From positions 310,001 to 374,000 of the forward strand of contig NC_009712.1 of assembly GCF_000017625.1 (NCBI RefSeq): a stretch of 64,000 nucleotides of DNA, given 5' to 3'. Every line of letters starts with the position of its first letter. The stretch's first letter is position 1. This DNA is from Methanoregula boonei 6A8. GTDB taxonomy: Archaea; Halobacteriota; Methanomicrobia; Methanomicrobiales; Methanospirillaceae. A program made the position numbers and the translations under genes. Shown piece by piece: positions 47,280 to 61,845 of the stretch. Below the pieces are notes generated by a model. It worked only from the letters and a program-made list of their open reading frames with translations. It was not told where the DNA came from and searched no databases.

Positions 47280-49085
47280 TCAGTAACCTCTTGAAAAACC
47301 ACCATTATGCAGTAAGATTCTCTCGGTCTCTAGGCCCTGAACGGTGTATTCGAGGCTTTCCCGGAATGTGGCGTCATTGACTTCGGTTTCCGGTTGTTTC
47401 GGCATCAATTGGATACCTCCATTGGGATATCTGCTACTGTTGATCCACTGGAGAGTATTACCCGCAGTTTTTGGATATTTGTGCAGATAATCTAGTGATG
47501 AAATAGACAACCAAGTTGGCGATATGTAGGAAAAATTCGTGGACCAGTTTTCCCCACGATATCGGTATCCCCCATCTCGTGTATACCCCTGTTCTATCCA
47601 GGCGGCACACGCATCTGGATTTGAAGGTGTTGCCAAAAGCGCATCCAGCGAGCCTAAAGCATAATATGTAGTCACAAGATCCGATCTTTCTCGACCGTAA
47701 CACCCATCAGCATTCTGAATTTCGTTGATTTTTCGGATTAAACGGTCTTTCTGCACAGAGTCTAAAGAGAGATCTACCACTTTTGCCATATTTAGCAGGT
47801 AAAAAATCTGTTCCATATCTCCCGGCCCAGAAGCGGATCCGGAAATTGTTGTAATTTGCTGTTCAAGCGTGCTCCTAATGGAGGCTGCGTTGGGAACCGA
47901 TTCCCCCAATTCCCCATATGTCATCACAACATAGTACTGGTTTTCTGGAGAAAGGTGGGGACTACTAAGCTGGGTGTCAAGCCAAGGTTTGATCTCAGAA
48001 ACCGTAGGGTTGCGTGGATCCAGCAGAGTCAATGCTCGGATTGCAAACCAGGTATCTTTGGGAGATGGAGTGATCTTAAATGCAGGGTGGAAGCCTCCGT
48101 ACCGGCTCTCATGCCGCTTGATGAAATTAATCGTCCTGTTGTTTACCGGACTTCCAATGTCAGATAACAATTTTGTTGCCAGATATGTTCCCTGGGCGTC
48201 GCCATAGTTATTCAGGATCGCATTATACCCTCCATCAGGTAATTCCAGGGAGTACACGTAATCCTGTACTTTTCTTGAGATATCCGGTGTGAGCCCTCCG
48301 GATGTACGCAATTCTGTTTCAAGAGCATTAAGAGTGAACAGATCAATTTTTTTTTCGGGTAGATCCCCCAATCGGGATTTCCATATCAAGGCATGTTGTT
48401 CCTCTACACTTTTTTGTGAACTGTCGATCTCAAACTCATTTGGATCGATATTTGCCAGATGAAATGCCGGGACCAGGATTTCTGTTTCTGCTAGTAGGTA
48501 GTCCTCATCAGTGGATATCTGATCGCTTTTCCACTGCTGCATAAGCCACTCGCGGGTAATATTTGCCGTTACTACATTGTTTCCGGTAAACTCCAAGATT
48601 TTCAAAGCCCTTGCGGTGTCCAGGGAGGATCCATTAAATCCCGGCCTGTCTGCATAAGAGCCATCTGATTTCCCGAATTGTTCAACAAGGGATATGATGC
48701 CAGACTGATTTTCCGGAGGGATATCGTAGTTTTTCATGCAGCCGGTCAGGTAATATAGGTCTTTGAGAGAAACCTCAGAAGTATTCCTGAGGAAATCCTG
48801 TTCACGGGAATACAACCATTGCTCTGTCTGTTCTTTCTGCATCAAGCCAATATGCTCATTTTTCAATGCCAGAGAGAAGTAATATGTAGAATACAAATCG
48901 GGATCATCAGGAGCAAAATCCGCATATCCCCCTTCAGGTGCACGGGAGTAACCGATCTTTTCCACGGTTTTTTCATTCCAAGATTCATAAGATGTTGGTG
49001 TAGTTGTATTTATGATAAAAAAAGCACAAATCCCGACAAGGCATGTGATAATGAGCAATATTCCGATATCCCGTTTTATTGACAT
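47280..49085 (-). CDS. Membrane-anchored alpha/alpha-toroid (prenyltransferase-like) protein
   Basis: A 601-residue protein with an N-terminal hydrophobic anchor (IGILLIITCLVGICAFFI) and an outside domain of repeated helix units with the signature G-G-Y/F/S: GGYADFAPDDPDLYSTYYFS, GSYADRPGFNGSSLDTARAL, GGYNAILNNYGDAQGTYLAT, GGFHPAFKITPSPKDTWFAI, GGYRYRGENWSTNF. This is the repeat of squalene cyclases, prenyltransferase beta subunits and their secreted relatives. Catalytic residues are not evident, so it is probably a surface-binding protein. It starts 28 bp after the exported protein gene, same operon. Confidence 0.82.
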   Translation of the reverse strand: MSIKRDIGILLIITCLVGICAFFIINTTTPTSYESWNEKTVEKIGYSRAPEGGYADFAPDDPDLYSTYYFSLALKNEHIGLMQKEQTEQWLYSREQDFLRNTSEVSLKDLYYLTGCMKNYDIPPENQSGIISLVEQFGKSDGSYADRPGFNGSSLDTARALKILEFTGNNVVTANITREWLMQQWKSDQISTDEDYLLAETEILVPAFHLANIDPNEFEIDSSQKSVEEQHALIWKSRLGDLPEKKIDLFTLNALETELRTSGGLTPDISRKVQDYVYSLELPDGGYNAILNNYGDAQGTYLATKLLSDIGSPVNNRTINFIKRHESRYGGFHPAFKITPSPKDTWFAIRALTLLDPRNPTVSEIKPWLDTQLSSPHLSPENQYYVVMTYGELGESVPNAASIRSTLEQQITTISGSASGPGDMEQIFYLLNMAKVVDLSLDSVQKDRLIRKINEIQNADGCYGRERSDLVTTYYALGSLDALLATPSNPDACAAWIEQGYTRDGGYRYRGENWSTNFSYISPTWLSISSLDYLHKYPKTAGNTLQWINSSRYPNGGIQLMPKQPETEVNDATFRESLEYTVQGLETERILLHNGGFSRGY

Positions 49086-49113: not shown

Positions 49114-49824
49114 TTAGACTGACACGTATGTGTTTACCGTATAATCTGAGTAACTGAACCGGAAGGTACCCGAATCACTTTCCTGGATTGAGGGAATAGT
49201 TGCCCAGCTCTGTGCCAGGAAGTTTGTGTAGCTATGAGTGACTGCATATGCATTTGTCCAGTAGTCAGAATAGGCGAGCCTGTTACCGCCGATATCCTGG
49301 TACCCCATGCTGCCGCCCGGCATGCTAATTGAGACACCGACACCGGATGCGGATACTTGGGATGCTAGGGTAATCTTGTCCGCATAATACGGGCTTGTCC
49401 CCTGCCAATTGGAAAGGAGATTTCCACTTACGTACTTGCTGTAGGGAGATGTCCATCCCCCATCATATGATCCGGTAATAGTAGTCCTCTGGTAGATGGA
49501 ACTGCCAAAGAGCGGCAGGCTGGCGCTGTTCGCACCGGATACCGGAGTTCCGGAGCTTGCCGTAGCAACACTTTTCGTCTTTTTGTTCAGGTTTGTCATC
49601 AGGTGGTCGACGCTTGCCGTCTTGTTGTCAGTTTTTCCAGTGAAGACATAGGTATAGGGATCTGTCTGTATGACAATTCCCTTGAGAGATGAATCGATTA
49701 CAGCGTCAGATGACGCTTGATGGGCATCAGCTGCCTGTATATCCGCCGCGTTCACCATCGGTACCATCGCCATCGCCGCCAGCAGCAATGCCAGCAGCAT
49801 GACGCCAGTTTTCAATGTTTTCAT
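49114..49824 (-). CDS. Exported protein of the shared-leader family (A)
   Basis: A 236-residue protein from ATG 49824, with AAAGGAGG upstream. Signal peptide MKTLKTGVMLLALLLAAMAM then VPMVNA-AD. The mature part is Ser/Thr/Tyr-rich and probably beta (SGAN SASLPLFGSSIYQ; TITGSYDGGWTSPYSKYVSG; SYTNFLAQSWATIPSIQESD). I do not recognise the fold. The signal peptide is almost identical to those of genes B and C, although the mature parts differ. It heads an operon with the toroid protein. Confidence 0.8.
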   Translation of the reverse strand: MKTLKTGVMLLALLLAAMAMVPMVNAADIQAADAHQASSDAVIDSSLKGIVIQTDPYTYVFTGKTDNKTASVDHLMTNLNKKTKSVATASSGTPVSGANSASLPLFGSSIYQRTTITGSYDGGWTSPYSKYVSGNLLSNWQGTSPYYADKITLASQVSASGVGVSISMPGGSMGYQDIGGNRLAYSDYWTNAYAVTHSYTNFLAQSWATIPSIQESDSGTFRFSYSDYTVNTYVSV

Positions 49825-49843
49825 GTTTCCGTTCCTCCTTTTG

Positions 49844-49901
49844 CTCCGCTCGGAGGGCATGGGAAAACCTTCATAGGATCAGGGGGGAATAATCCCATGC
49901 C
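49844..49901 (-). promoter_or_regulatory. Two hairpins in the leader of gene A, one beside the RBS
   Basis: CTCCG-CT-CGGAG (49844-49855) lies just upstream of AAAGGAGG. GGCATGGGA (49856-49864) pairs perfectly with TCCCATGCC (49893-49901). Both are kept in gene B (53336-53392). They could control access of the ribosome. Confidence 0.55.
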
Positions 49902-49961
49902 TGCGGGCGGGACCGGGTCCAGCCGCAATTCGACGTGGGGCGGGCCCGACCTCTTGATTGT

Positions 49962-49983
49962 GGGACAACCCCCCGGCTGTCCA
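49962..49983 (-). promoter_or_regulatory. 5'-end hairpin of gene A transcript
   Basis: GGACAACC (49963-49970) pairs with GGCTGTCC (49975-49982). In message sense GGACAGCC-loop-GGTTGTCC, closing with one G-U pair. It starts about 26 bp after the TATA box, the expected transcript 5' end. Also seen at 53457, 57369 and 61464. Confidence 0.6.
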
Positions 49984-50007
49984 CGCTTGTGCGATTCGCG
50001 ACGGCAG

Positions 50008-50036
50008 ATATAAGGATTCTAACGCGTACGTCTACC
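50008..50036 (-). promoter_or_regulatory. Shared upstream box with TATA, copy A
   Basis: In message sense GGTAGACGTACGCGTTAGAA followed by TCC and TTATAT. The same box with the same spacing precedes five more sites in the window. The position directly before a TATA box fits a transcription-factor (activator or TFB-related) site. Confidence 0.65.
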
Positions 50037-50154
50037 GGAGTCCCGATCGGCAAATGGTGGGGTAGAGCATCGACGAGTGTTATCTAAAAAATCCCCGCCG
50101 CCCAAAGAAACGTATTTCTGGTGAAAAATCCACATAGTCATCAGGTAAGTGTCT

Positions 50155-50313
50155 ATGACATCTGTCATCCATAACCCCGCGATCATACAGGCTTCTGCGG
50201 GAGCGGCAAAGAAAAACCGGGCCAAAAGAAAGATATCCCCACAAGGGATCTTCGGGCTGCTCCCCGACTGGAAGATCGATACGCAGGAATTCCGGGACGA
50301 AATGCGCGATTAG
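50155..50313 (+). CDS. vapB: VapB-type antitoxin (short)
   Basis: A 52-codon gene from ATG 50155 to TAG 50313. The product starts MTSVIHNPAIIQASAGAAKK and ends GIFGLLPDWKIDTQEFRDEM plus RD. The ending G-x-L-x-x-W-x-I-D-T-Q-x-x-x-D-E is common in VapB antitoxins that plug PIN toxins. It stops two bases before the PIN gene start. Confidence 0.72.
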   Translation: MTSVIHNPAIIQASAGAAKKNRAKRKISPQGIFGLLPDWKIDTQEFRDEMRD

Positions 50314-50315
50314 AG

Positions 50316-50690
50316 ATGGCATCTTTTTTTGCGGATTCATACGCACTCATTGAGATTCTCAAAGGAAACGAACGTTACATTCCCTACATTAACGGGAATC
50401 TGGTAACAACAGAGTTCAACATCTGCGAAGTTACATTTGCCGTGTGCAGGGACTACCCGGACAAAACCCGGCAGGTGATGGCCCGTGTCCGAAAGATGGT
50501 CACCCTTCTGTCAACCACGGATGGAGATTATTGCGAGGGTGCGGCCATGAGAAGAAAAACAACGGGTGCCGGCAAAAAACTTTCTACGATCGATTGTGTC
50601 GGCTACGCTGTTTCCCGCCGGCAAGAAATTCCGTTCCTCACGGGGGATCGTGAATTTGAGGATATCGAAGACGTTGAATTCGTCCGGTGA
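50316..50690 (+). CDS. vapC: VapC-type PIN-domain RNase toxin
   Basis: A 124-residue PIN domain: FFADSYALIEILKGNERYIP (first Asp), NLVTTEFNICEVTFAV (Glu), STIDCVGYAVSRRQEIPFLT (Asp) and GDREFEDIEDVEF (final Asp). These match the four acidic positions of PIN RNases. It pairs with the upstream VapB gene (two-base gap). Confidence 0.85.
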   Translation: MASFFADSYALIEILKGNERYIPYINGNLVTTEFNICEVTFAVCRDYPDKTRQVMARVRKMVTLLSTTDGDYCEGAAMRRKTTGAGKKLSTIDCVGYAVSRRQEIPFLTGDREFEDIEDVEFVR

Positions 50691-50860
50691 CCGGGCCTTA
50701 TCCCCTTTCAGGCCGTGGGGGGTATGTCCCTGTTGAAACGTCCCGGAGTTCCCAAGTCTCCTGCCGGCTTCGTACCCCCTGGAGACCATGAAGATTAATA
50801 GACCGGTAGTACAAAGGTAATCATTATGCGAAGACCAGATCGGGACCACGCAGGGAAAAG

Positions 50861-51202
50861 ATGACGCAGGGATCGGCGGACCCCCGGGAGCTCGGCGAGA
50901 TTATCCGGAACATTGTTGCGTGTGCACACCCGGAAAAGATCATCCTTTTCGGCTCCGGGGCACGGGGAGAGATGGGGCCCTCAAGCGATATCGATCTCCT
51001 GGTCATAAAGGACGGGGAATTTGATCCCGGTGCGCTGACCGAAGAGATCTACATGCATCTTGTGGGAATCGGCCGGGCCGTCGATGTCATCGTTATCTCA
51101 TCCCGGGATGCCGAGCGGTACCGCAACTCGCCCTACTTTGTGGTGTACCCGGCATTCCGGCAGGGCACGGAGGTCTACCATGCAGGACAGGCTCTCACCT
51201 GA
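50861..51202 (+). CDS. Minimal nucleotidyltransferase (MNT)
   Basis: A 113-residue MNT with GSGARGEMGPSSDIDLLV (GS-x9-D-x-D). It overlaps the next HEPN gene by 23 bp, the usual MNT-HEPN arrangement. Probable toxin-modifying antitoxin. Confidence 0.88.
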   Translation: MTQGSADPRELGEIIRNIVACAHPEKIILFGSGARGEMGPSSDIDLLVIKDGEFDPGALTEEIYMHLVGIGRAVDVIVISSRDAERYRNSPYFVVYPAFRQGTEVYHAGQALT

Positions 51203-51581
51203 AGATCCGGAAGAATGGCTCAATCGGGCACGCTCCAATCTCGCGATTGCCAAAAACCGGTGTGACGCAGCCATTTACCGGGAAGATCTCTGTTTTAATG
51301 CACAACAGGCCGCCGAGAAAGGATTAAAGGCAGTCTGCATCCGGCACCGGATTGAATTTCCCTACATCCACGATATGGCCGCTCTTGTCACTCTCCTGAT
51401 GAAAAATGGCGTTGCTGTTCCGGAACCGGTAAAGGAAGCAGCAAAACTCACGCGGTTTGCCATTGCCACGCGGTATCCGCATGTTTCGGGACCGGTACGC
51501 GAAGAGGAATACCAGAGGGCTATCGCAATTTCAGGGACGGTTCTTGACTGGTGTGAAGAGGAACTCCGGCATACCGGGTGA
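51180..51581 (+). CDS. HEPN-domain protein
   Basis: A 133-residue HEPN protein of the larger type: EEWLNRARSNLAIAKNRCDA, LCFNAQQAAEKGLKAVCIRH, and HDMAALVTLL. The motif C/A-F-N-A-Q-Q-A-x-E-K-x-L-K-A is diagnostic. Unlike HepT it lacks R-x4-H-x-Y, so activity may be non-RNase. It starts inside the MNT gene. Confidence 0.85.
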   Translation: MQDRLSPEDPEEWLNRARSNLAIAKNRCDAAIYREDLCFNAQQAAEKGLKAVCIRHRIEFPYIHDMAALVTLLMKNGVAVPEPVKEAAKLTRFAIATRYPHVSGPVREEEYQRAIAISGTVLDWCEEELRHTG

Positions 51582-51621
51582 TCTCCTCCTTTCCGGATTG
51601 GATCGCGGTATCCCCTCGTAC

Positions 51622-51955
51622 CACTTCATCCCATCCGGGTTCAAATTGAGCCCGGATTGCCCTTTTCCGGGCCCGTATCGGGCTCCGTTTCCCGGAAAAT
51701 AAATCCAAGCCCAAATAGGCCGTATTTTTGCAATCGGGCGAAATAGAACGTCCTCATAGAAGCTCTTTCCTGCCCTGATCTCACCTCAAACAGGCATTTG
51801 ACCATTCCCGAAAAAAGATGCCGTAGAATCGCGTCTATGGGCCGTTTATGGGCATTATACGGGACTCAAATTTGGCGTATTTCGGCAAATGGGACATTAT
51901 ATTTGCCTTTTTTCGTTTCCTGTGGGATCGGACGGTTTTACGGGCGTATTTTGGA
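51622..51955. repeat. ~340-bp intergenic repeat, copy 3
   Basis: More diverged than copies 1 and 2 but shares TTCATCCCATCCGGG, the hairpin (CGGGCCCG TAT CGGGCTCCG), CCGTATTTTTGCAATCGG, CTCAAATTTGGCGTATTT and GATCGGACGGTTTTACGGG in the same order. It follows the MNT-HEPN pair and its right end provides the last codons of the membrane gene at 51938. Confidence 0.82.
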
Positions 51956-52363
51956 GTTCTCCTGATATCTCTTTATTAGAGCGACAATGAAGAAAGCAAT
52001 TGAAAGGATTGCGAATGCCGCGAGAACCGGTGAAAAACCCTGGTGAGTGTACGACACTTTTTGGATCGTCATAGATGAATTGACAAACAGGAATCCAAAA
52101 TAGACCGCCGTCAATCCCCCGAGTAACGGGTCCATCCGGGGGAATTTAATCAATGCGGCTGCAAGCAGGGCTGCTGCAAGCCACGTTACTCCAAGGGCGA
52201 TCCCGGCCGGAAGCCCGTCGAGTTTTCTCCCAAAAAACCAGGTTTCCCAGTTGATGACAAATGCAAACAAGGTGGCCAGCGCAAAGACTATGAGAAGTCC
52301 AAGCACGCAGTATTTCAAGATTGTTTCGGTTTGTGCGATCATATTTTTGCTCGTCATAATCAT
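51938..52363 (-). CDS. Four-helix membrane protein
   Basis: About 141 residues with four hydrophobic helices (YCVLGLLIVFALATLFAFVI; GIALGVTWLAAALLAAALI; GLTAVYFGFLFVNSS; FSPVLAAFAILSIAFFIVAL) and a basic tail. I start it at ATG 52363; a TTG four codons upstream is possible. It lies about 30 bp after exported protein B, in the same operon. The stop codon TAA lies within repeat copy 3. No family recognised. Confidence 0.68.
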   Translation of the reverse strand: MIMTSKNMIAQTETILKYCVLGLLIVFALATLFAFVINWETWFFGRKLDGLPAGIALGVTWLAAALLAAALIKFPRMDPLLGGLTAVYFGFLFVNSSMTIQKVSYTHQGFSPVLAAFAILSIAFFIVALIKRYQENSKIRP

Positions 52364-52392
52364 CACTGCCGTCAAAAAAATAAATAATATTT

Positions 52393-53316
52393 TTAGTAGG
52401 AATAGGTAATTTTCGCCATATTGGAATTTCTGTCATAGGTGTCCATAGCATGATTCCATACATTGCTTAGGTATATCCGGGTAGACGATCCAAACGGACG
52501 AGTAATACTCCCATGCTGCCCGATAATATATCCGTAGGTATAGCCATTATCCCGGTTGCTGCCAAACTCGATGGTCCCATTCGAATAGACAATAAAACTC
52601 TGAGTATCTTCGATGGTGCCGTAAACTGCCAAACGATACGCATCGTATACTGCATCACTTGAAGCAGAATCGGGTACATCTTCATCCCGAAAATGGCATT
52701 CATAGTACGTATATGACCCGGGATGGGTGTTGTAGATTATACTGTAGAGTTGATTTCCCCCATTTACCGTGTAGGCAATATTATTCCCGTCACGTCCAGT
52801 GCCTCCGTTTACATCCACAGCCACTTGGATGAGGGTGAGTGAATTCGGAAGAGCGGTAAGTTGGAGATTACCTGATTTCATTTGGACGTTATCCGGTTGA
52901 ACTTGTAGTATGCGCATTTGGGTGGCGTTCACTCCCAGTTCTTTCTTACGATTCTCTTGAACGACTTTATTCAGATCTTCTGCAACTATGATCTGTTTTA
53001 CCGTGTCCCGTTGCTTTGCCGAAAGTTGTTGCCCCGTTTTAATTTCAAGAATATCAATAATTGAATCTAGATTTGTCTGATACTTTTTTACCAAGCTACT
53101 AGACAGGTCTTTGTAGTATTGATCATGGGTTGTGATTCTTTCGTTTATGGCCGTGGAGACATTGATCTGGATTTCATTGTGAATCGGTTGATATAAGGAG
53201 ACAATATTTTGATCACTAGTATCTCCTTGTGCCGCGGAATCGTCTGCACTCACCATCGGTACCATCGCCGCCAACAGCAATGCCAGCAGCATGCCGCCAG
53301 TTTTCAATGTTTTCAT
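52393..53316 (-). CDS. Exported protein of the shared-leader family (B)
   Basis: A 307-residue protein from ATG 53316, AAAGGAGG upstream. Signal peptide MKTLKTGGMLLALLLAAMVP then MVSA-DD. A helical part (INERITTHDQYYKDLSSSLV; LSAKQRDTVKQIIVAEDLNK) precedes a beta-rich part (LQLTALPNSLTLIQVAVDVN; SIIYNTHPGSYTYYECHFRD). Family unknown. Promoter, leader and signal peptide match gene A. Confidence 0.78.
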   Translation of the reverse strand: MKTLKTGGMLLALLLAAMVPMVSADDSAAQGDTSDQNIVSLYQPIHNEIQINVSTAINERITTHDQYYKDLSSSLVKKYQTNLDSIIDILEIKTGQQLSAKQRDTVKQIIVAEDLNKVVQENRKKELGVNATQMRILQVQPDNVQMKSGNLQLTALPNSLTLIQVAVDVNGGTGRDGNNIAYTVNGGNQLYSIIYNTHPGSYTYYECHFRDEDVPDSASSDAVYDAYRLAVYGTIEDTQSFIVYSNGTIEFGSNRDNGYTYGYIIGQHGSITRPFGSSTRIYLSNVWNHAMDTYDRNSNMAKITYSY

Positions 53317-53335
53317 TTTTCCATTCCTCCTTTTG

Positions 53336-53392
53336 CTCCGCTCGGAGGGCATGGGAAAACCTTCATAGAATCAGGGGGAATAATCCCATGCC
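53336..53392 (-). promoter_or_regulatory. Two hairpins in the leader of gene B
   Basis: CTCCG-CT-CGGAG (53336-53347) next to the ribosome-binding site and GGCATGGGA/TCCCATGCC (53348-53356 approx. with 53384-53392), as in gene A. Conservation between unlinked mature genes suggests function or a recent copy. Confidence 0.55.
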
Positions 53393-53456
53393 TTCGGGCG
53401 GTCACGGGTTCATTCGGTTTCGCAAAGACTGGGGTGAACCCGAACCTTCATTTTTG

Positions 53457-53476
53457 GGACAACCCCCCGGCTGTCC
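53457..53476 (-). promoter_or_regulatory. 5'-end hairpin of gene B transcript
   Basis: GGACAACC (53457-53464) and GGCTGTCC (53469-53476), the same stem as in gene A, beginning about 26-30 bp downstream of the TATA box. Confidence 0.6.
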
Positions 53477-53501
53477 ACGCTTGTGCGATTCGCGACGGCA
53501 A

Positions 53502-53664: not shown

Positions 53665-53982
53665 ATGCCCATATCTCCCACTAAGCATATGCAGGACACT
53701 GCCGGGATACTGGACCAGCTGCGGGGCATGAGGCACGAGCTCGAAGAGCAGTACCATGTGAAAAGGATCGGGATCTTTGGCTCGTACGCAAAAAAAGCGC
53801 AGACAGACGAGAGCGATCTCGACCTCGTAGTGGAATTCTCCCGGCCGATCGGGATGCTGGCATTTGTGCACCTCAAAGACCTGCTTTCCCAAAAGTTCAA
53901 TCTCCGGATCGACCTTGTCACACCAGACGGCCTCCACCCGCTCATCCGCGACCGGGTGATGCATGAGGTTGTGTATGCCTGA
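53665..53982 (+). CDS. mntA: MntA-like nucleotidyltransferase
   Basis: A 105-residue MNT: KRIGIFGSYAKKAQTDESDL then DLVVEF (GS-x10-D-x-D) and FNLRIDLVTPDGLHPLIRDR. ATG 53665 has GGGGA upstream; ATG 53689 is an alternative. Stop overlaps the HepT start by 8 bp. Probable antitoxin. Confidence 0.88.
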   Translation: MPISPTKHMQDTAGILDQLRGMRHELEEQYHVKRIGIFGSYAKKAQTDESDLDLVVEFSRPIGMLAFVHLKDLLSQKFNLRIDLVTPDGLHPLIRDRVMHEVVYA

Positions 53983-54319
53983 AAAACGTACTGCTGCGCT
54001 CCTGCTATACGATATTTTCCAGGCTATAGAAAAGATCGAAACATTCTGTGCCGGTTATTCTTTTGATCTGCTCATGGAGGATCAACGCACACAGGATGCC
54101 ATTCTCCGCAATATCCAGATCATTGGCGAAGCTTCTAAGAATCTGCCCCAGGAACTTATTTCCCGCCACCCGGAAGTGGACTGGAGCGGTCTTGCCGGTA
54201 TCCGGGACATTGTTACGCACCGGTATTTCCGGGTAGACTGGAATCTTTTGTGGACCAGCATCCATGAGGAACTGCCGGTGCTTAAGGCTCAGATCGGGAA
54301 ACTCATGAAGGAAGAATAA
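53975..54319 (+). CDS. hepT: HepT-like HEPN RNase toxin
   Basis: A 114-residue HEPN protein starting MPEKRTAALLLYDIFQAIEK with NIQIIGEASKNLPQELISRH and RNase motif GIRDIVTHRYF (R-x4-H-x-Y). Complete, unlike the frameshifted one at 28.2 kb. Confidence 0.9.
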   Translation: MPEKRTAALLLYDIFQAIEKIETFCAGYSFDLLMEDQRTQDAILRNIQIIGEASKNLPQELISRHPEVDWSGLAGIRDIVTHRYFRVDWNLLWTSIHEELPVLKAQIGKLMKEE

Positions 54320-54992: not shown

Positions 54993-55343
54993 TTAATCCA
55001 CATCCGGCCCCATTGCATCGCAAAGGGATTGGATCTCAGGTTCAAGTTCGGGCAGTTTGTTCTTGATCACATCCCATACAATTTCATAATTGATTGCAAA
55101 ATAGCCGTGGATGACCTTATCGCGGAGCCCGGCCATGAACTTCCATGGGATCTTCGGATTCTCTTTACGGATCCTGTCCGGGACATTCTTTGCAGCTTCA
55201 CCAATGATCTCCAGTGAACGGGTTACCGCGTGTTCAGTTGTTTTATTATTCAGGAGAGATTCATAGGTTATCGTCGGCCGGAGAGAATCCAGATATTCGA
55301 TCTCATCCAGGATATGCTGGAGATATACCCGGTCATCCTTCAA
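54993..55343 (-). CDS. hepT: HepT-like HEPN RNase toxin
   Basis: A 116-residue HEPN protein: MKDDRVYLQHILDEIEYLDS, RSLEIIGEAAKNVPDRIRKE, and motif GLRDKVIHGYF (R-x4-H-x-Y). Overlaps the MNT gene by 11 bp. Complete. Confidence 0.9.
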   Translation of the reverse strand: MKDDRVYLQHILDEIEYLDSLRPTITYESLLNNKTTEHAVTRSLEIIGEAAKNVPDRIRKENPKIPWKFMAGLRDKVIHGYFAINYEIVWDVIKNKLPELEPEIQSLCDAMGPDVD

Positions 55344-55659
55344 TCCAGATCACCTCGCGTTCAACCCGGGACCGGATATATTTGTCAATACTTCCCACCG
55401 TCAGGAGATCCACTTTTCTGCCCAGGAGATCTTCAAGAAAATAAACCAACTGCATGAAATTATCAAAGGTTGCCTGCCCGTCGGCAAACTCCACCAGTAT
55501 ATCGACATCGCTGGTACGCTTCTCCTCACTGCGGGCAAAGGATCCGAATATCCCGATTCTTTTTACGCCGAAACGTGAACGGAGTGAGGGTACCGCATGA
55601 CCGAGTCTCATAAATACCGGACTCTTCAGTTTCTTTTGCGGGATTACCTGCGGCACCAT
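55333..55659 (-). CDS. mntA: MntA-like nucleotidyltransferase
   Basis: A 108-residue MNT: RIGIFGSFARSEEKRTSDVD then ILVEF, and FMQLVYFLEDLLGRKVDLLT. The position usually filled by Gly after GSFAR is Ser here. I chose ATG 55659; the frame extension to 55737 lacks similarity. Antitoxin partner of the HepT below it. Confidence 0.88.
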   Translation of the reverse strand: MVPQVIPQKKLKSPVFMRLGHAVPSLRSRFGVKRIGIFGSFARSEEKRTSDVDILVEFADGQATFDNFMQLVYFLEDLLGRKVDLLTVGSIDKYIRSRVEREVIWIEG

Positions 55660-55932
55660 AGTTGTTCTCTTTAGTACCTGTTGTTGGGTAATGGGTATAA
55701 AAAAGTGTATGTGTCTCAACCAAAAACCCGGCAACAATACAGCACCCGGTCATTTTTAAAAAAATCCGTTTCCCAAAAACCTGGTATCTGGAGCGCCAAA
55801 AAACCGGACATATATCTAAAAAATCAGACATTACCGGTAATGACTTGTAGGTGTTCTCCCTCTTCACGTTAGTTCCCATAATGTCCCCAAAGTAAAAACA
55901 CATAAAGAAATTTTATTGGCAGTATCACTCCC

Positions 55933-56754
55933 TCATGGGTTATGTTTAGACGATTGTTCCCGCCAGCTCATCCGGCTGTCCGCGCTCCCGGATGACGCTC
56001 CGGCACCTTCCCCGGTAAACTGCCTGAACACATTCAATCCGGCAGGACAAAAGGTATAGCGGACAGCCTTTCCCTTTTTGCTGGTGGAAATAATCCCGTC
56101 CCCAGTTAATCGCCTCGTGTGCCACGTGATCGACGGGCCGGCAATGCCCACGATCCCGGCGATATCCTTCCTTGAGACCTCGGGAGACGCGGCAAGAATT
56201 TCAAGAATCCTCCTTGTCGTCGGGTTCTGCAGGTGGAAAAAGACCTTCTTTTCAAGCTCGCTGTACCGGCCGTTATTCTCGAAATACCGTAGCGACCTGC
56301 CGCTGCCAAAGGATACAATCCTCCTTTTTGCCTCAAGGATCAGCAGGTGGTACTTCAGGGTGCCTTCCTTTATCCCGGTCATCCGTTCGAGGGCCGTAAA
56401 CCTCACGCCCGGGTTTGCCGCAATGCACGCAAAGATTTCCCGGCGGTTCCGGTTCCATAGGATGGCATTCTGCCCGACCTTCCGGTACCCGAGGGCTGCA
56501 AGAAGTTTCAGGTAAAAGAAGATCTCGACCGGGTAGGCAAGCACCGGGCAAAACGACAGCGCCACAGCAATGAGCATCTCCCGCAGGGTGAGATCGAAGA
56601 ATGATATCGGTACAGGATCCTGGGGCTGACCCTGTACGGCGCCGGCCCCGCCCGGGGCCACGCTGTATCCGCCATAACTGGCGGTAACAGCCGGCACGCA
56701 GGCAAGGGCGATAAAAATAATGAGGGCAACTGCCCTCACCGGCCAGGGTTTCAT
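55933..56754 (-). CDS. Membrane-bound winged-helix regulator
   Basis: A 273-residue protein with a signal-anchor (VALIIFIALACVPAVTASYG), a second hydrophobic helix (MLIAVALSFCPVLAYPVEIF), then two winged-helix domains: about 100-160 (RREIFACIAANPGVRFTALE; TGIKEGTLKYHLLILEAKRR) and 170-240 (TTRRILEILAASPEVSRKDI; AGPSITWHTRRLTGDGIIST). Such membrane regulators are common in methanogens. It lies 45 bp downstream of exported protein gene 56800, whose promoter has the shared box, so it is a candidate regulator of that family. Confidence 0.85.
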   Translation of the reverse strand: MKPWPVRAVALIIFIALACVPAVTASYGGYSVAPGGAGAVQGQPQDPVPISFFDLTLREMLIAVALSFCPVLAYPVEIFFYLKLLAALGYRKVGQNAILWNRNRREIFACIAANPGVRFTALERMTGIKEGTLKYHLLILEAKRRIVSFGSGRSLRYFENNGRYSELEKKVFFHLQNPTTRRILEILAASPEVSRKDIAGIVGIAGPSITWHTRRLTGDGIISTSKKGKAVRYTFCPAGLNVFRQFTGEGAGASSGSADSRMSWREQSSKHNP

Positions 56755-56799: not shown

Positions 56800-57243
56800 T
56801 TAATACGTGACAAAATTATAACCCTGGATCCCGAGAACGGTCTCCCCGTACACCTTGAACCTCCATGTGCCGGGTGCAATTCCGCCGGTCCTGCTGAATG
56901 TAAGGAAAATTCTCCCATCCTTTACGCTGTCGGAAGCATCGTAATACGGGCCGAGCGTCCCATCCGGGGCGATAACCGAAAGCGAGAGGGAATCGGGGAC
57001 ATATCCCCAGTTGAGGTCAGCGGTAAGGGAGGACTTTCCCGAAGGGACACTGACCGAATACCAGTCCGTTTCCCCCTGGGAAATAGAACCGGCGGTCATG
57101 GGAGACACAACCGCGGGCAGGCGCAGGTTTCCGGCCGGGCTTACGGAATACCCGGCACTTTTGTCGACATCCTGTGCAGAAACTCCCGATATGAGCACGA
57201 TGGCGCAGACCAGGATTGCGAGGGTCGCTACGGATACTTTCAT
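56800..57243 (-). CDS. Exported PPC-like domain protein
   Basis: A 147-residue protein with signal peptide VATLAILVCAIVLISGVSA-QD. The mature part (GSISQGETDWYSVSVPSGKS; LTADLNWGYVPDSLSLSVIA; GIAPGTWRFKVYGETVLGIQ) resembles bacterial pre-peptidase C-terminal (PPC) beta domains. No anchor. Divergent from gene C; both carry the shared box back to back. Likely one operon with the membrane regulator. Confidence 0.82.
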   Translation of the reverse strand: MKVSVATLAILVCAIVLISGVSAQDVDKSAGYSVSPAGNLRLPAVVSPMTAGSISQGETDWYSVSVPSGKSSLTADLNWGYVPDSLSLSVIAPDGTLGPYYDASDSVKDGRIFLTFSRTGGIAPGTWRFKVYGETVLGIQGYNFVTY

Positions 57244-57285: not shown

Positions 57286-57346
57286 TTCTAACGCAAGCGT
57301 CTACCGATCAGGAATCCGGTAGACCCGGGCGTTAGAACCGTTATAT
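57286..57346. promoter_or_regulatory. Divergent pair of shared boxes (copies C1 and C2)
   Basis: Left copy: minus sense GGTAGACGCTTGCGTTAGAA (57286-57305), facing the gene at 57243. Right copy: plus sense GGTAGACCCGGGCGTTAGAA then CCG and TTATAT (57318-57346), facing gene C. Together they form a large imperfect inverted repeat with an 11-bp centre. The left copy has only a poor TATA (TTAAG). Confidence 0.65.
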
Positions 57347-57368
57347 CTCCTGAAATGAGATTTCCCGC

Positions 57369-57389
57369 GGGGCAGCCGGGGGTTGTCCC
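57369..57389 (+). promoter_or_regulatory. 5'-end hairpin of gene C transcript
   Basis: GGGGCAGCC (57369-57377), loop GGG, GGTTGTCCC (57381-57389), nine pairs with two G-U. It starts 26 bp after the centre of the TATA box, as in A and B. Confidence 0.6.
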
Positions 57390-57522
57390 AAAATACCGGG
57401 TCTTGCAAGACGACGGACTTTGCCGGGCCCGGCCCCGCTCTCCGTGGCATGAGCACATTATCGTGATTTATGATGATTCGCCATGTCCTTTCGAGCGGAG
57501 CGTATGTAAAAAGGAGGAAAAA

Positions 57523-58722
57523 ATGAAACCCATAAAATACGGCATCATCCTGCTGGCACTGCTGCTGGCAGCGATGGCGATGGTACCGATGGTGAGCGCA
57601 ATGGGAACAGCAATTACTCCGGATGTCGCAACGGCAATAGAGAGTAATTACGTGTCTCCTGATACTGCATTCCAGTCAGCGACCGCGGCCGTAAAAGACT
57701 TTATCGGCAGAAATGCACTTGATGAAAACTGGAATGGTGCAACGGTCAATCCGAAACCAAACATCATCTTTGATGTAAATGGGAAGAAGTTATTTTATTT
57801 ATTCTCCGTGGAGAAAAAAGGAAACCGGATTGGAGAGATCAAAATTGCCGCCAGTAAAGTACTCGGATCATCTGTTGTAACAATCGGATCGGGAGCGCCG
57901 GCAATCGATCTCAAAAATATCCGATCAAAAGCAACAGGAATTCTCAATCAGCAGTACAAGAACGCAAAAATCGATTCGATCGATCTTGTATGCTACAATT
58001 ACCCGAATATAGGGGCAATAATCAGATTCACAGCGGCAGGATCCGGAAGTACTTCCCTGGTAATCGATGCCTATGATTATTCAATTATACCCGCGGCCGG
58101 CCAGGTCTCATTCTATAATGCAATTCCTCCTGCAGATCTGGCAGGACGTGCAGCACGGTGGGATTCCGAGCAGACTGCTCTTAAAACCGTAAGTGCACAA
58201 TCTCTCTCTCCGATGGCAACAGTGACAAAAACGATTAACGGTTTCACTCTTTATCCACAGGAAAGCACAAACTGGTGTAGCTTTGCAACTGCAAAAATGA
58301 TTTCTGCATACTACGGCTATTCACGAACCCAGCGGGGCATTGCAACAACAATGGGTATAGCGAATCCTGATGATGGTGCATCGATCGAGACCACACGCTC
58401 CAACTATTATCTTAATACGATTGCAAACGGCGGGTTGGCTAAAATGGGAACCTCAATCAGCTACACCGGCATGTTCACGTATGATAATATTGTAAGTGAG
58501 ATGAACTCAAATCGCCCGATACACACTGACCGGTATGAGACGTCATCCTATCATGCAAGAGCGATCACAGGATATTCCTATACTACGACGACTCCGGTAT
58601 CACAGTATCTGTACATTTATGATCCGTGGCCAACAACCTCGGGCGCGGTATATTGGGAGAACTGGAATGTCTTCTCGGGACAGCCTAATCCTGTGCACGC
58701 AATCCTTTATGTAAGGAACTAA
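57523..58722 (+). CDS. Exported C39-like cysteine peptidase domain protein (gene C)
   Basis: A 399-residue protein from ATG 57523 with AAAAAGGAGG upstream. Signal peptide MKPIKYGIILLALLLAAMAM then VPMVSA-MG. A region of about 170 residues with pepSY-like strand pattern is followed by a papain/C39-like domain (about 235-395): Cys in ESTNWCSFATAKMISAYYGY, His in SSYHARAITGYS and Asp in IYDPWP. These fit a catalytic Cys-His-Asp set. The substrate is unknown; it may cut surface proteins. Leader differs from A and B but keeps the box, the 5' hairpin and a CTTTCGAGCGGAG block near the RBS. Confidence 0.82.
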   Translation: MKPIKYGIILLALLLAAMAMVPMVSAMGTAITPDVATAIESNYVSPDTAFQSATAAVKDFIGRNALDENWNGATVNPKPNIIFDVNGKKLFYLFSVEKKGNRIGEIKIAASKVLGSSVVTIGSGAPAIDLKNIRSKATGILNQQYKNAKIDSIDLVCYNYPNIGAIIRFTAAGSGSTSLVIDAYDYSIIPAAGQVSFYNAIPPADLAGRAARWDSEQTALKTVSAQSLSPMATVTKTINGFTLYPQESTNWCSFATAKMISAYYGYSRTQRGIATTMGIANPDDGASIETTRSNYYLNTIANGGLAKMGTSISYTGMFTYDNIVSEMNSNRPIHTDRYETSSYHARAITGYSYTTTTPVSQYLYIYDPWPTTSGAVYWENWNVFSGQPNPVHAILYVRN

Positions 58723-60703: not shown

Positions 60704-60769
60704 GGTGGATCTTGCCGGTTGCCTTTCAATTAATCAGTCGTCGATCACGCCGGTTTTCCCGGTAAATCC

Positions 60770-60798
60770 GGTAGATGACTGCGTTAGAACCGTTATAT
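60770..60798 (+). promoter_or_regulatory. Shared upstream box with TATA, copy D
   Basis: GGTAGATGACTGCGTTAGAA, then CCG and TTATAT. It stands about 135 bp before the membrane-protein gene at 60933. Downstream, the leader starts like that of gene C (TATTCCCGCGGG) but the hairpin is decayed. Confidence 0.6.
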
Positions 60799-60932
60799 CC
60801 CCGTAAATAATATTCCCGCGGGCCAGTCAATCGGAGGTACCTGGACGAATGATCTCACATCATATGTGTGAACCGGATTAAACCATTCAATTTTTTATTT
60901 TCCTTAAACTGTACAAATTTGAGAGGAATCTG

Positions 60933-61409: not shown

Positions 61410-61482
61410 GGTAGACGCGAGCGTTAGAATCGATATATATCGCAGAATAAAATCCCCATTCGTGGACAGCCGGGGGTTGTCC
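61410..61482 (+). promoter_or_regulatory. Shared upstream box E with TATA and 5' hairpin
   Basis: GGTAGACGCGAGCGTTAGAA, then TCG and ATATATAT (61433-61440), and 27 bp further on the hairpin GGACAGCC (61464-61471), GGG, GGTTGTCC (61475-61482). This is a full promoter/hairpin set without a following exported-protein gene, so it may be an orphan left by a deletion or it may make an RNA. Confidence 0.6.
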
Positions 61483-61556
61483 CGTAAATGCATGAACGGG
61501 TTTATCCAGGTGACGAACTGGATCGGACCCGGTCCGCCCGCGGATACATGATAATT

Positions 61557-61845
61557 TCACTTACCATAGTTTTTTGAAATTTTCTCGCTTCCCGGGCCGA
61601 CAATAAAGGAAGTGATAGCATAGGATCCATGCACATAAGACAGGATGGCATTGACGTTTCCCGGAAGGATGCCATCAAGGTTAGCAAAGAAGAACAACGG
61701 TTTGCCCAGGACCGGATCGTACTCCGGAGGACGGCGATACCGGGAACCGGTGTCCGGATATCCTCCCAAAAGAGACCCGGCAGGAATGGTGATGGCAATT
61801 TTTCGGGAACTGCCGGTATATCGCCCGGTACCCGGAGGCAGGCAT
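61557..61845 (-). pseudogene. Possible remnant of an exported protein
   Basis: A minus-strand frame ends with KIAITIPAGSLLGGYPDTGS, then LGKPLFFFANLDGILPGNVN and AILSYVHGSYAITSFIVGPG. The alternating hydrophobic residues are protein-like, yet the N-terminal part is basic and cysteine-rich and overlaps the gene at 61850 on the other strand. It could be the 3' end of a lost gene; weak evidence. Confidence 0.25.

Follow-up and report, generated by a model that had tools for sequence, protein, structure and literature searches.

The locus and its shared upstream DNA

The window analysed here is a 64,000-nucleotide stretch of the genome of the methanogen Methanoregula boonei 6A8 (NC_009712.1, positions 310,001 to 374,000), and our subject is an upstream unit which several of its genes for exported proteins have in common, comprising promoter elements, a leader of about 140 nt between the TATA box and the ribosome-binding site (RBS), and a signal peptide. 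The leader precedes the genes called here A, B and C and recurs at one orphan site:

49114-49824, minus strand: gene A (ATG at 49824), a 236-amino-acid exported protein, signal peptide at 49747-49824
52393-53316, minus strand: gene B (ATG at 53316), a 307-amino-acid exported protein, signal peptide at 53245-53316
57523-58722, plus strand: gene C, a 399-amino-acid exported Peptidase_C39_2 protein (Pfam E 3.8e-20)
49843-49986, minus strand: leader RNA of A (covariance model match 1-143; 126.4 bits, E 6.6e-38 in the genome)
53335-53480, minus strand: leader RNA of B (110.7 bits)
57367-57501, plus strand: leader RNA of C (45.2 bits, E 1.6e-11)
61460-61602, plus strand: orphan leader without an exported open reading frame (ORF; 52.8 bits)

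A first-pass annotation had seen near-identical DNA upstream of A and B, matching signal peptides and an identity ending within the coding region, and the comparison bears it out on all three points. The common DNA falls into two blocks, one of 117 bp (96% identity) and one of 101 bp (88%), which together span operator, TATA box and leader and reach into the signal peptide. Along the aligned genes, identity at the DNA level stays at 0.83-0.97 as far as codon 18, falls to 0.55 over codons 19-27 and is 0.45-0.51 thereafter, against a baseline of about 0.46 for shuffled sequences; the signal peptide of B lacks six bases relative to that of A. Genome-wide, five genes begin with this signal peptide, namely A, B, C and two genes, D and E, of a second cluster, that of C being very similar (81% identity to the query of the signal-peptide search). 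Aligned as the annotation had suggested, the upstream regions of A, B and C present one leader and a very similar signal peptide before all three.

Beyond the signal peptide no sequence homology was found among the mature parts of A, B and C with composition correction off (best E 0.59 for A-B, 0.67 for B-C and 7.8 for A-C), and single-sequence structure predictions of A and B (mean pLDDT 31.9 and 43.8) were too poor for comparison. This counts against ordinary gene duplication, by which A and B would be recent copies with fast-diverged mature domains, and which the annotation had named as the explanation should those domains prove to be diverged homologues; by sequence they do not.

A conserved structured leader RNA

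Alignment and pair counts place three helices in the leader of A, with an apical stem, P4, that is present in most relatives and poorly formed in A itself:

49960-49984, minus strand: P1, the 5'-terminal hairpin
49910-49951, minus strand: P2, a long hairpin, GGTCGGGCCC...GGACCCGGTCC
49847-49909, minus strand: P3 (CGCCCG..GGCATG / CATGCC..CGAGCG)

The covariance model was built from 17 aligned family leaders, the genus contributing the majority, and the structure was counted over 150 aligned matches (142 distinct), which include some antisense strands of the same leaders and the 17 seeds, matching by construction. Among the 142 distinct sequences double-sided changes are seen at 34 of the 35 pairs and 89.7% of cells are paired, and shifting the partner column by 1-3 positions lowers the paired cells to 30.6-50.8%. 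A covariance alignment is, to the detriment of such a count, fitted to the structure, and the pairs were therefore counted again after aligning, by sequence only, 77 leaders with less than 85% mutual similarity. In this second alignment 82.9% of cells are paired (shuffle maximum 79.8), double-sided changes occur in 31 of the 35 pairs (maximum 26) and double-changed cells number 121 (maximum 76). G-U cells number 468 and A-C cells 195, an excess which favours the gene strand as the RNA strand. On these comparisons the leader is a conserved structured RNA, and not merely shared DNA. A mutual-information ranking of the sequence-only alignment, consisting mostly of top-of-P2 pairs and noise, was not used as proof.

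Both the hairpin at the 5' end and the GGCATGGG/CCCATGCC stem that the first-pass annotation had described are real and conserved; its inventory had missed the longest helix, P2. The hairpin it had drawn at the RBS, CTCCGAGCGGAG, is present in A and B, the CTCC part not being conserved in C or in many relatives, and we rule it out as a conserved part of the leader, whilst CGAGCG, read there as belonging to it, is rather the 3' strand of a conserved outer stem that pairs with the upstream CGCCCG. An upstream ORF starting from the conserved TATGAAG in P3 was also considered and rejected: although it fits A, B and C, a number of the seed leaders lack the ATG, as do distant members. In the latter, P2 and the P3 core (GCCCGnAGGCA ... 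TGCC) are kept, and the signal peptides differ in most of them.

A stable 5' hairpin on a structured leader could also be a passive element that protects the messenger and gives a high constant output without regulation. TATA-like matches before 169 leaders peak at -29 to -25 from the start of the RNA model, so that P1 sits at the predicted 5' end of the RNA, and this, with the strong local folding computed for the leader, would suit such a role. The base-level conservation of P3 and the compensatory changes across an order, however, exceed the needs of simple protection, and of all the helices P1 is the one least kept in distant members; we consider a purely passive role possible but rather unlikely.

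Distribution and link to exported proteins

Searched against its own genome, the leader of B finds six places (A, B, C, the orphan near 61410 and, in the second cluster, C1:1195961 and C1:1199598), and the covariance model adds C1:1460538, so that the cassette copies which the first-pass annotation had proposed to look for are there, at C, at the orphan site and at C1:1460538. Within the family the model, at a cutoff of E 0.001, matches 33 of 108 genomes, with as many as 26 hits in one of them (G034); after exclusion of matches weaker than about E 2e-5 and of one antisense match, 139 family places were analysed further. The order search matched 47 of 232 genomes at E 1e-4, and a sample of the phylum 24 of 392, including four of one Methanosarcina-like genus outside the order.

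The second cluster of the M. boonei genome (locus L007, 4805-11119) holds D and E, with near-identical diverged leaders, a dyad of its own (CCCAACTGGCAGTTGGG) and its own s2-R2 gene pair, of the kind described below for the window. The best model match among these leaders is at E (13.0 bits, E 7.6e-4), and unrelated places in the same 4 kb reach 10.7 and 10.3 bits, so that the D and E leaders are at most candidate members of the class.

An ORF with a strongly hydrophobic, signal-peptide-like N-terminus begins at most 45 nt downstream of 104 of the 139 leaders and within 130 nt of eight more (112 of 139 in total); a similar measure of hydrophobicity is reached by 201 of 773 other ORFs of these regions. 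Among distant members, ORFs with a hydrophobic N-terminus follow 30 of 31 fetched matches (peaks 2.2 to 3.8), these being a subset of the places found and, with some near-identical orthologues among them, not independent. The end of the leader model lies at a median of 25 nt from the start codon. This distance and the fixed orientation, together with the export link and the compensatory changes, leave hardly any room for a mobile DNA element inserted before genes, in spite of the many copies per genome, some of them near-identical, no search for terminal repeats or transposases having been made. At L191, L187, L112, L175 and L140 the leader stands 121-127 nt, rather than about 25 nt, before related exported proteins, which have an NxYxxAGE/D-like start after the signal peptide.

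Eight orphan leaders were found in six genomes (61460-61640 of the window; L161, L159, L178, L179, L184, L131, L170), each finishing in a conserved GGAAGTGnTAGCATAGAATC-like stretch that no exported ORF follows. Such leaders may be independent RNAs; alternatively, a small ORF that escaped annotation may lie behind them.

A conserved multi-helix leader, with conserved sequence in and around P3 and a fixed distance to the start codon, is also what one would expect of a metabolite-binding riboswitch, in which case the leader would sense a specific small molecule and the exported proteins would form one response regulon. The target genes, however, have a common destination and not a common pathway, and nothing hints at a ligand. 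Rfam gave no match at gathering score within the window, nor for the leader strand of the loci scanned, and the four matches of the A leader up to E 10, none of them near threshold, include no riboswitch at threshold. A riboswitch is therefore a doubtful reading, in our view about on a par with the passive element.

Apparent exchange of leaders and mature parts

Mature parts of at least 80 residues (103 in number) fall into 24 clusters at E 1e-5, that of B being unlike all the other 23. Cluster representatives match Peptidase C39-like, transglutaminase core, reprolysin-like metallopeptidase and Kelch domains and, at E 0.001 only, Zn-dependent phospholipase C; each of the 17 families listed matches a single one of the 24 representatives. 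For 64 pairs of the same array without mature homology, the leaders are at least 85% identical in 15 and 100% identical in one. Nine such same-array pairs were chosen for profiling: identity is 0.83-1.0 over the leader and, in most bins of the signal peptide, 0.7-1.0, and in all nine it drops after codon 27 to the shuffled level (about 0.46, maximum 0.56).

The reverse mosaic is found as well. G056_C13_73378, G059_C42_2230 and G034_C1_2304636 have mature parts 92-94% identical behind leaders only 62-71% identical and upstream DNA at 0.53-0.57 (for the first two, 94% against 62%), and between A and its homologues in G034 and G061 the identity is 77% over the mature part and 60% over the leader. 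Other orthologue pairs, e.g., G034_C1_98916 with G061_C41_67393, retain both parts; a further profiled pair, G034_C1_1519619 with G041_C11_191102, was excluded for a wrong start call. The leader/signal part and the protein part thus appear, from these alignments, to have been exchanged independently, which supports the promoter-leader-signal cassette before different mature domains that the first-pass annotation had proposed, now in many genomes and by mosaics in both directions.

Some pairs do speak for duplication: D and E are true homologues in their mature parts (29% identity, E 3e-55) with near-identical leaders, and homologous mature parts occur in seven same-array pairs. Yet leaders 91-100% identical stand before unrelated proteins in several genomes, and duplication alone gives no reverse mosaic, by which it is largely refuted; as the origin of A and B we hold it very improbable.

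Operator and neighbouring gene pair

In 5' to 3' order on the gene strand the unit consists of operator, TATA box, leader (P1, P2 and P3, with P4 apical), Shine-Dalgarno sequence, signal peptide and mature part. A pattern search with the operator consensus GTAGAYnnnnGCGTTAGAA (at most two mismatches) gave six matches in the whole genome, all in the window between 50017 and 61429. Since the reversed-pattern control gave five, the number itself is unremarkable, and it is the clustering that is relevant. The operators, the remaining elements of A and the adjoining gene pair are:

50017-50035, minus strand: operator of A, GTAGACGTACGCGTTAGAA
53511-53529, minus strand: operator of B, one mismatch
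57319-57337, plus strand: operator of C
57286-57304, minus strand: operator of s1-R1, divergent from C
60771-60789, plus strand: operator, with a TATA box and without a recognisable leader
61411-61429, plus strand: operator of the orphan leader
50008-50013, minus strand: TATA box of A, identified from the sequence
49834-49842, minus strand: RBS of A, AAAGGAGG, likewise
56800-57243, minus strand: s1, a small secreted PPC-domain protein (Pfam PPC E 1.5e-8)
55933-56754, minus strand: R1, a protein with a hydrophobic N-terminal half and two winged-helix domains (Pfam HTH_24, HTH_HVO_0163_N)

The genes s1 and R1 adjoin C in divergent orientation, and the two operators of this arrangement, one for C and one for s1-R1, point towards each other at a start-to-start distance of 33 bp, an exact spacing which recurs in G056, G057, G063 and G068, whose R1 orthologues are about 65-70% identical (five genomes in total). 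The operator is also found in G034, G061, G052, G062 and G067, without such an R1 orthologue, and the link between operator and R1 is therefore not exclusive. Gene pairs of this type, a secreted PPC-type and a membrane winged-helix protein, lie beside many arrays: of the 27 leader clusters in five genomes that consist of a single contig, 9 (8 of 26 without D/E) are at most 6 kb from an R gene, counted on the R genes among the matches listed, whilst random shifts give a mean of 0.95 and none of 5000 reaches the observed number. We propose R1 as a membrane-bound regulator of the cluster, and infer from the linkage and the shared operator that the membrane protein R, with its secreted partner s, may control transcription of the arrays through that operator.

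At 60745-60830 the operator and TATA box without recognisable leader precede a 122-amino-acid membrane-type ORF. Directly downstream of A, 47280-49085 encodes a protein of 601 amino acids whose N-terminus is hydrophobic and which carries toroid repeats of prenyltransferase type. Between the exported genes lie three adjacent gene pairs (50861-51581, 53676-54319 and 54993-55737) which, judging by their motifs, we take to resemble nucleotidyltransferase/HEPN-type pairs.

A probable counterpart in Methanosarcina

In the Methanosarcina-like genome G533 (locus L237), which we tentatively place in Methanosarcina because of its match to the small RNA sRNA162, a leader match lies downstream of s-like and R-like genes in the same order. 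It covers 1813-1936 on the plus strand, partly opposite sRNA162 (RF02792; 1690-1878, minus strand), which is antisense to the leader start. The corresponding locus has been described in M. mazei, with MM2440-MM2441 (ArsR family), sRNA162 and MM2442; the transcript start of MM2442, mapped by RACE, overlaps the 5' end of sRNA162 by 65 nt, its 5' untranslated region (5'UTR) is bound by sRNA162 in vitro, and the absence of an RBS before it and two short ORFs are reported (Jager et al. 2012, PMC3510493). Transferred to L237, the mapped start falls at 1814, and the leader match starts at 1813. The Methanosarcina counterparts of the s-R pair appear, from their sequences, to be MM2440-MM2441, next to MM2442. 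In L237 an MM2442-like ORF (1954-2436) is preceded by an RBS (AAGAGGTG), and the start at 1954 may be the true N-terminus of the MM2442-like gene, the annotated M. mazei start then being internal, which would explain the reported short ORFs.

As in the window, where s1-R1 stands by C, a secreted s gene and then an ArsR-like R gene are found there beside the leader gene; unlike in the window, with its arrays, there is one leader match per genome. The accessible part of the MM2442 paper (PMC3510493) describes no conserved leader fold, leader family or cassettes. The overlap and the binding in vitro, with RF02792 on the strand opposite the leader match of L237, could suggest that the leader exists for binding by an antisense RNA of this kind. 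Against it, sRNA162 has no match in the window, nor in eight of the nine loci scanned, and we judge this explanation very unlikely.

Interpretation

We regard it as likely that the DNA held in common is a modular cassette through which exported proteins are expressed, made of a structured 5' leader of about 140 nt followed by a conserved Sec signal peptide. As far as comparison of sequences goes, the position of the leader, its compensatory helices, its link to export and the recombination-like breakpoints at the signal peptide are established. Several results weigh against this interpretation in part. RNAalifold on the gappy full alignment A2 recovered only P1; P1 is variable or lost in distant members; 19 of the 139 family places fit neither of the two patterns, exported ORF or orphan (they include contig ends and several apparently broken signal-peptide genes); and the complete genomes G069 and G070 have no R gene near their leaders among the matches listed. 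The tail of the leader is, moreover, complementary to the Shine-Dalgarno sequence of its own gene over a mean run of 4.58, above that of shuffled tails (3.86) but not above permuted pairs (mean 4.35, maximum 4.63), so that a switch by P3 is left unproven and the anti-Shine-Dalgarno model is supported in part only.

In this reading the leader RNA would act in cis on translation or stability, control of translation being the best guess, and most likely through the folding of P3, whose 3' strand ends a few bases before the Shine-Dalgarno sequence and which would set access to that site. Exchange by homologous recombination, for which the near-identical DNA of leader and signal peptide would offer a substrate, would allow arrays to acquire new mature domains. 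A bolder conjecture, to which we give little credence, is that the leader defines a regulon by destination, read by ribosome-bound targeting factors, by the state of the translocon or by the membrane-anchored R; if true, the synthesis of unrelated exported proteins would be kept in step with the capacity for export or with a signal at the surface.

Like riboswitches and other structured 5' leaders such as the crcB class, which is common to bacteria and archaea (PMC2864571), the leader is, by comparison, a conserved structured 5'UTR RNA close to the RBS. Unlike in riboswitches, its targets are set by export and not by pathway, and within the genus the RNA travels with the signal peptide. Expression-site or cassette systems, e.g., surface-antigen cassettes, combine one constant unit with exchangeable coding parts. 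The present system resembles them in having a constant expression unit with exchangeable coding parts, and differs from them in having many copies in arrays and a constant part made of a structured RNA and a Sec signal peptide. No description of this leader class was found in Rfam or in the literature searched, a scope without most subscription journals and the 2017 structured-RNA survey.

Few cis-acting RNAs are, to our knowledge, known in archaea, and the leader would add to them a large structured-RNA class whose targets have only export in common. It also helps to place the MM2442 5'UTR, for which there was no explanation and which belongs to a methanogen amenable to genetics, and suggests a route by which methanogens may assemble new secretomes, with coding parts plugged in behind a constant unit.

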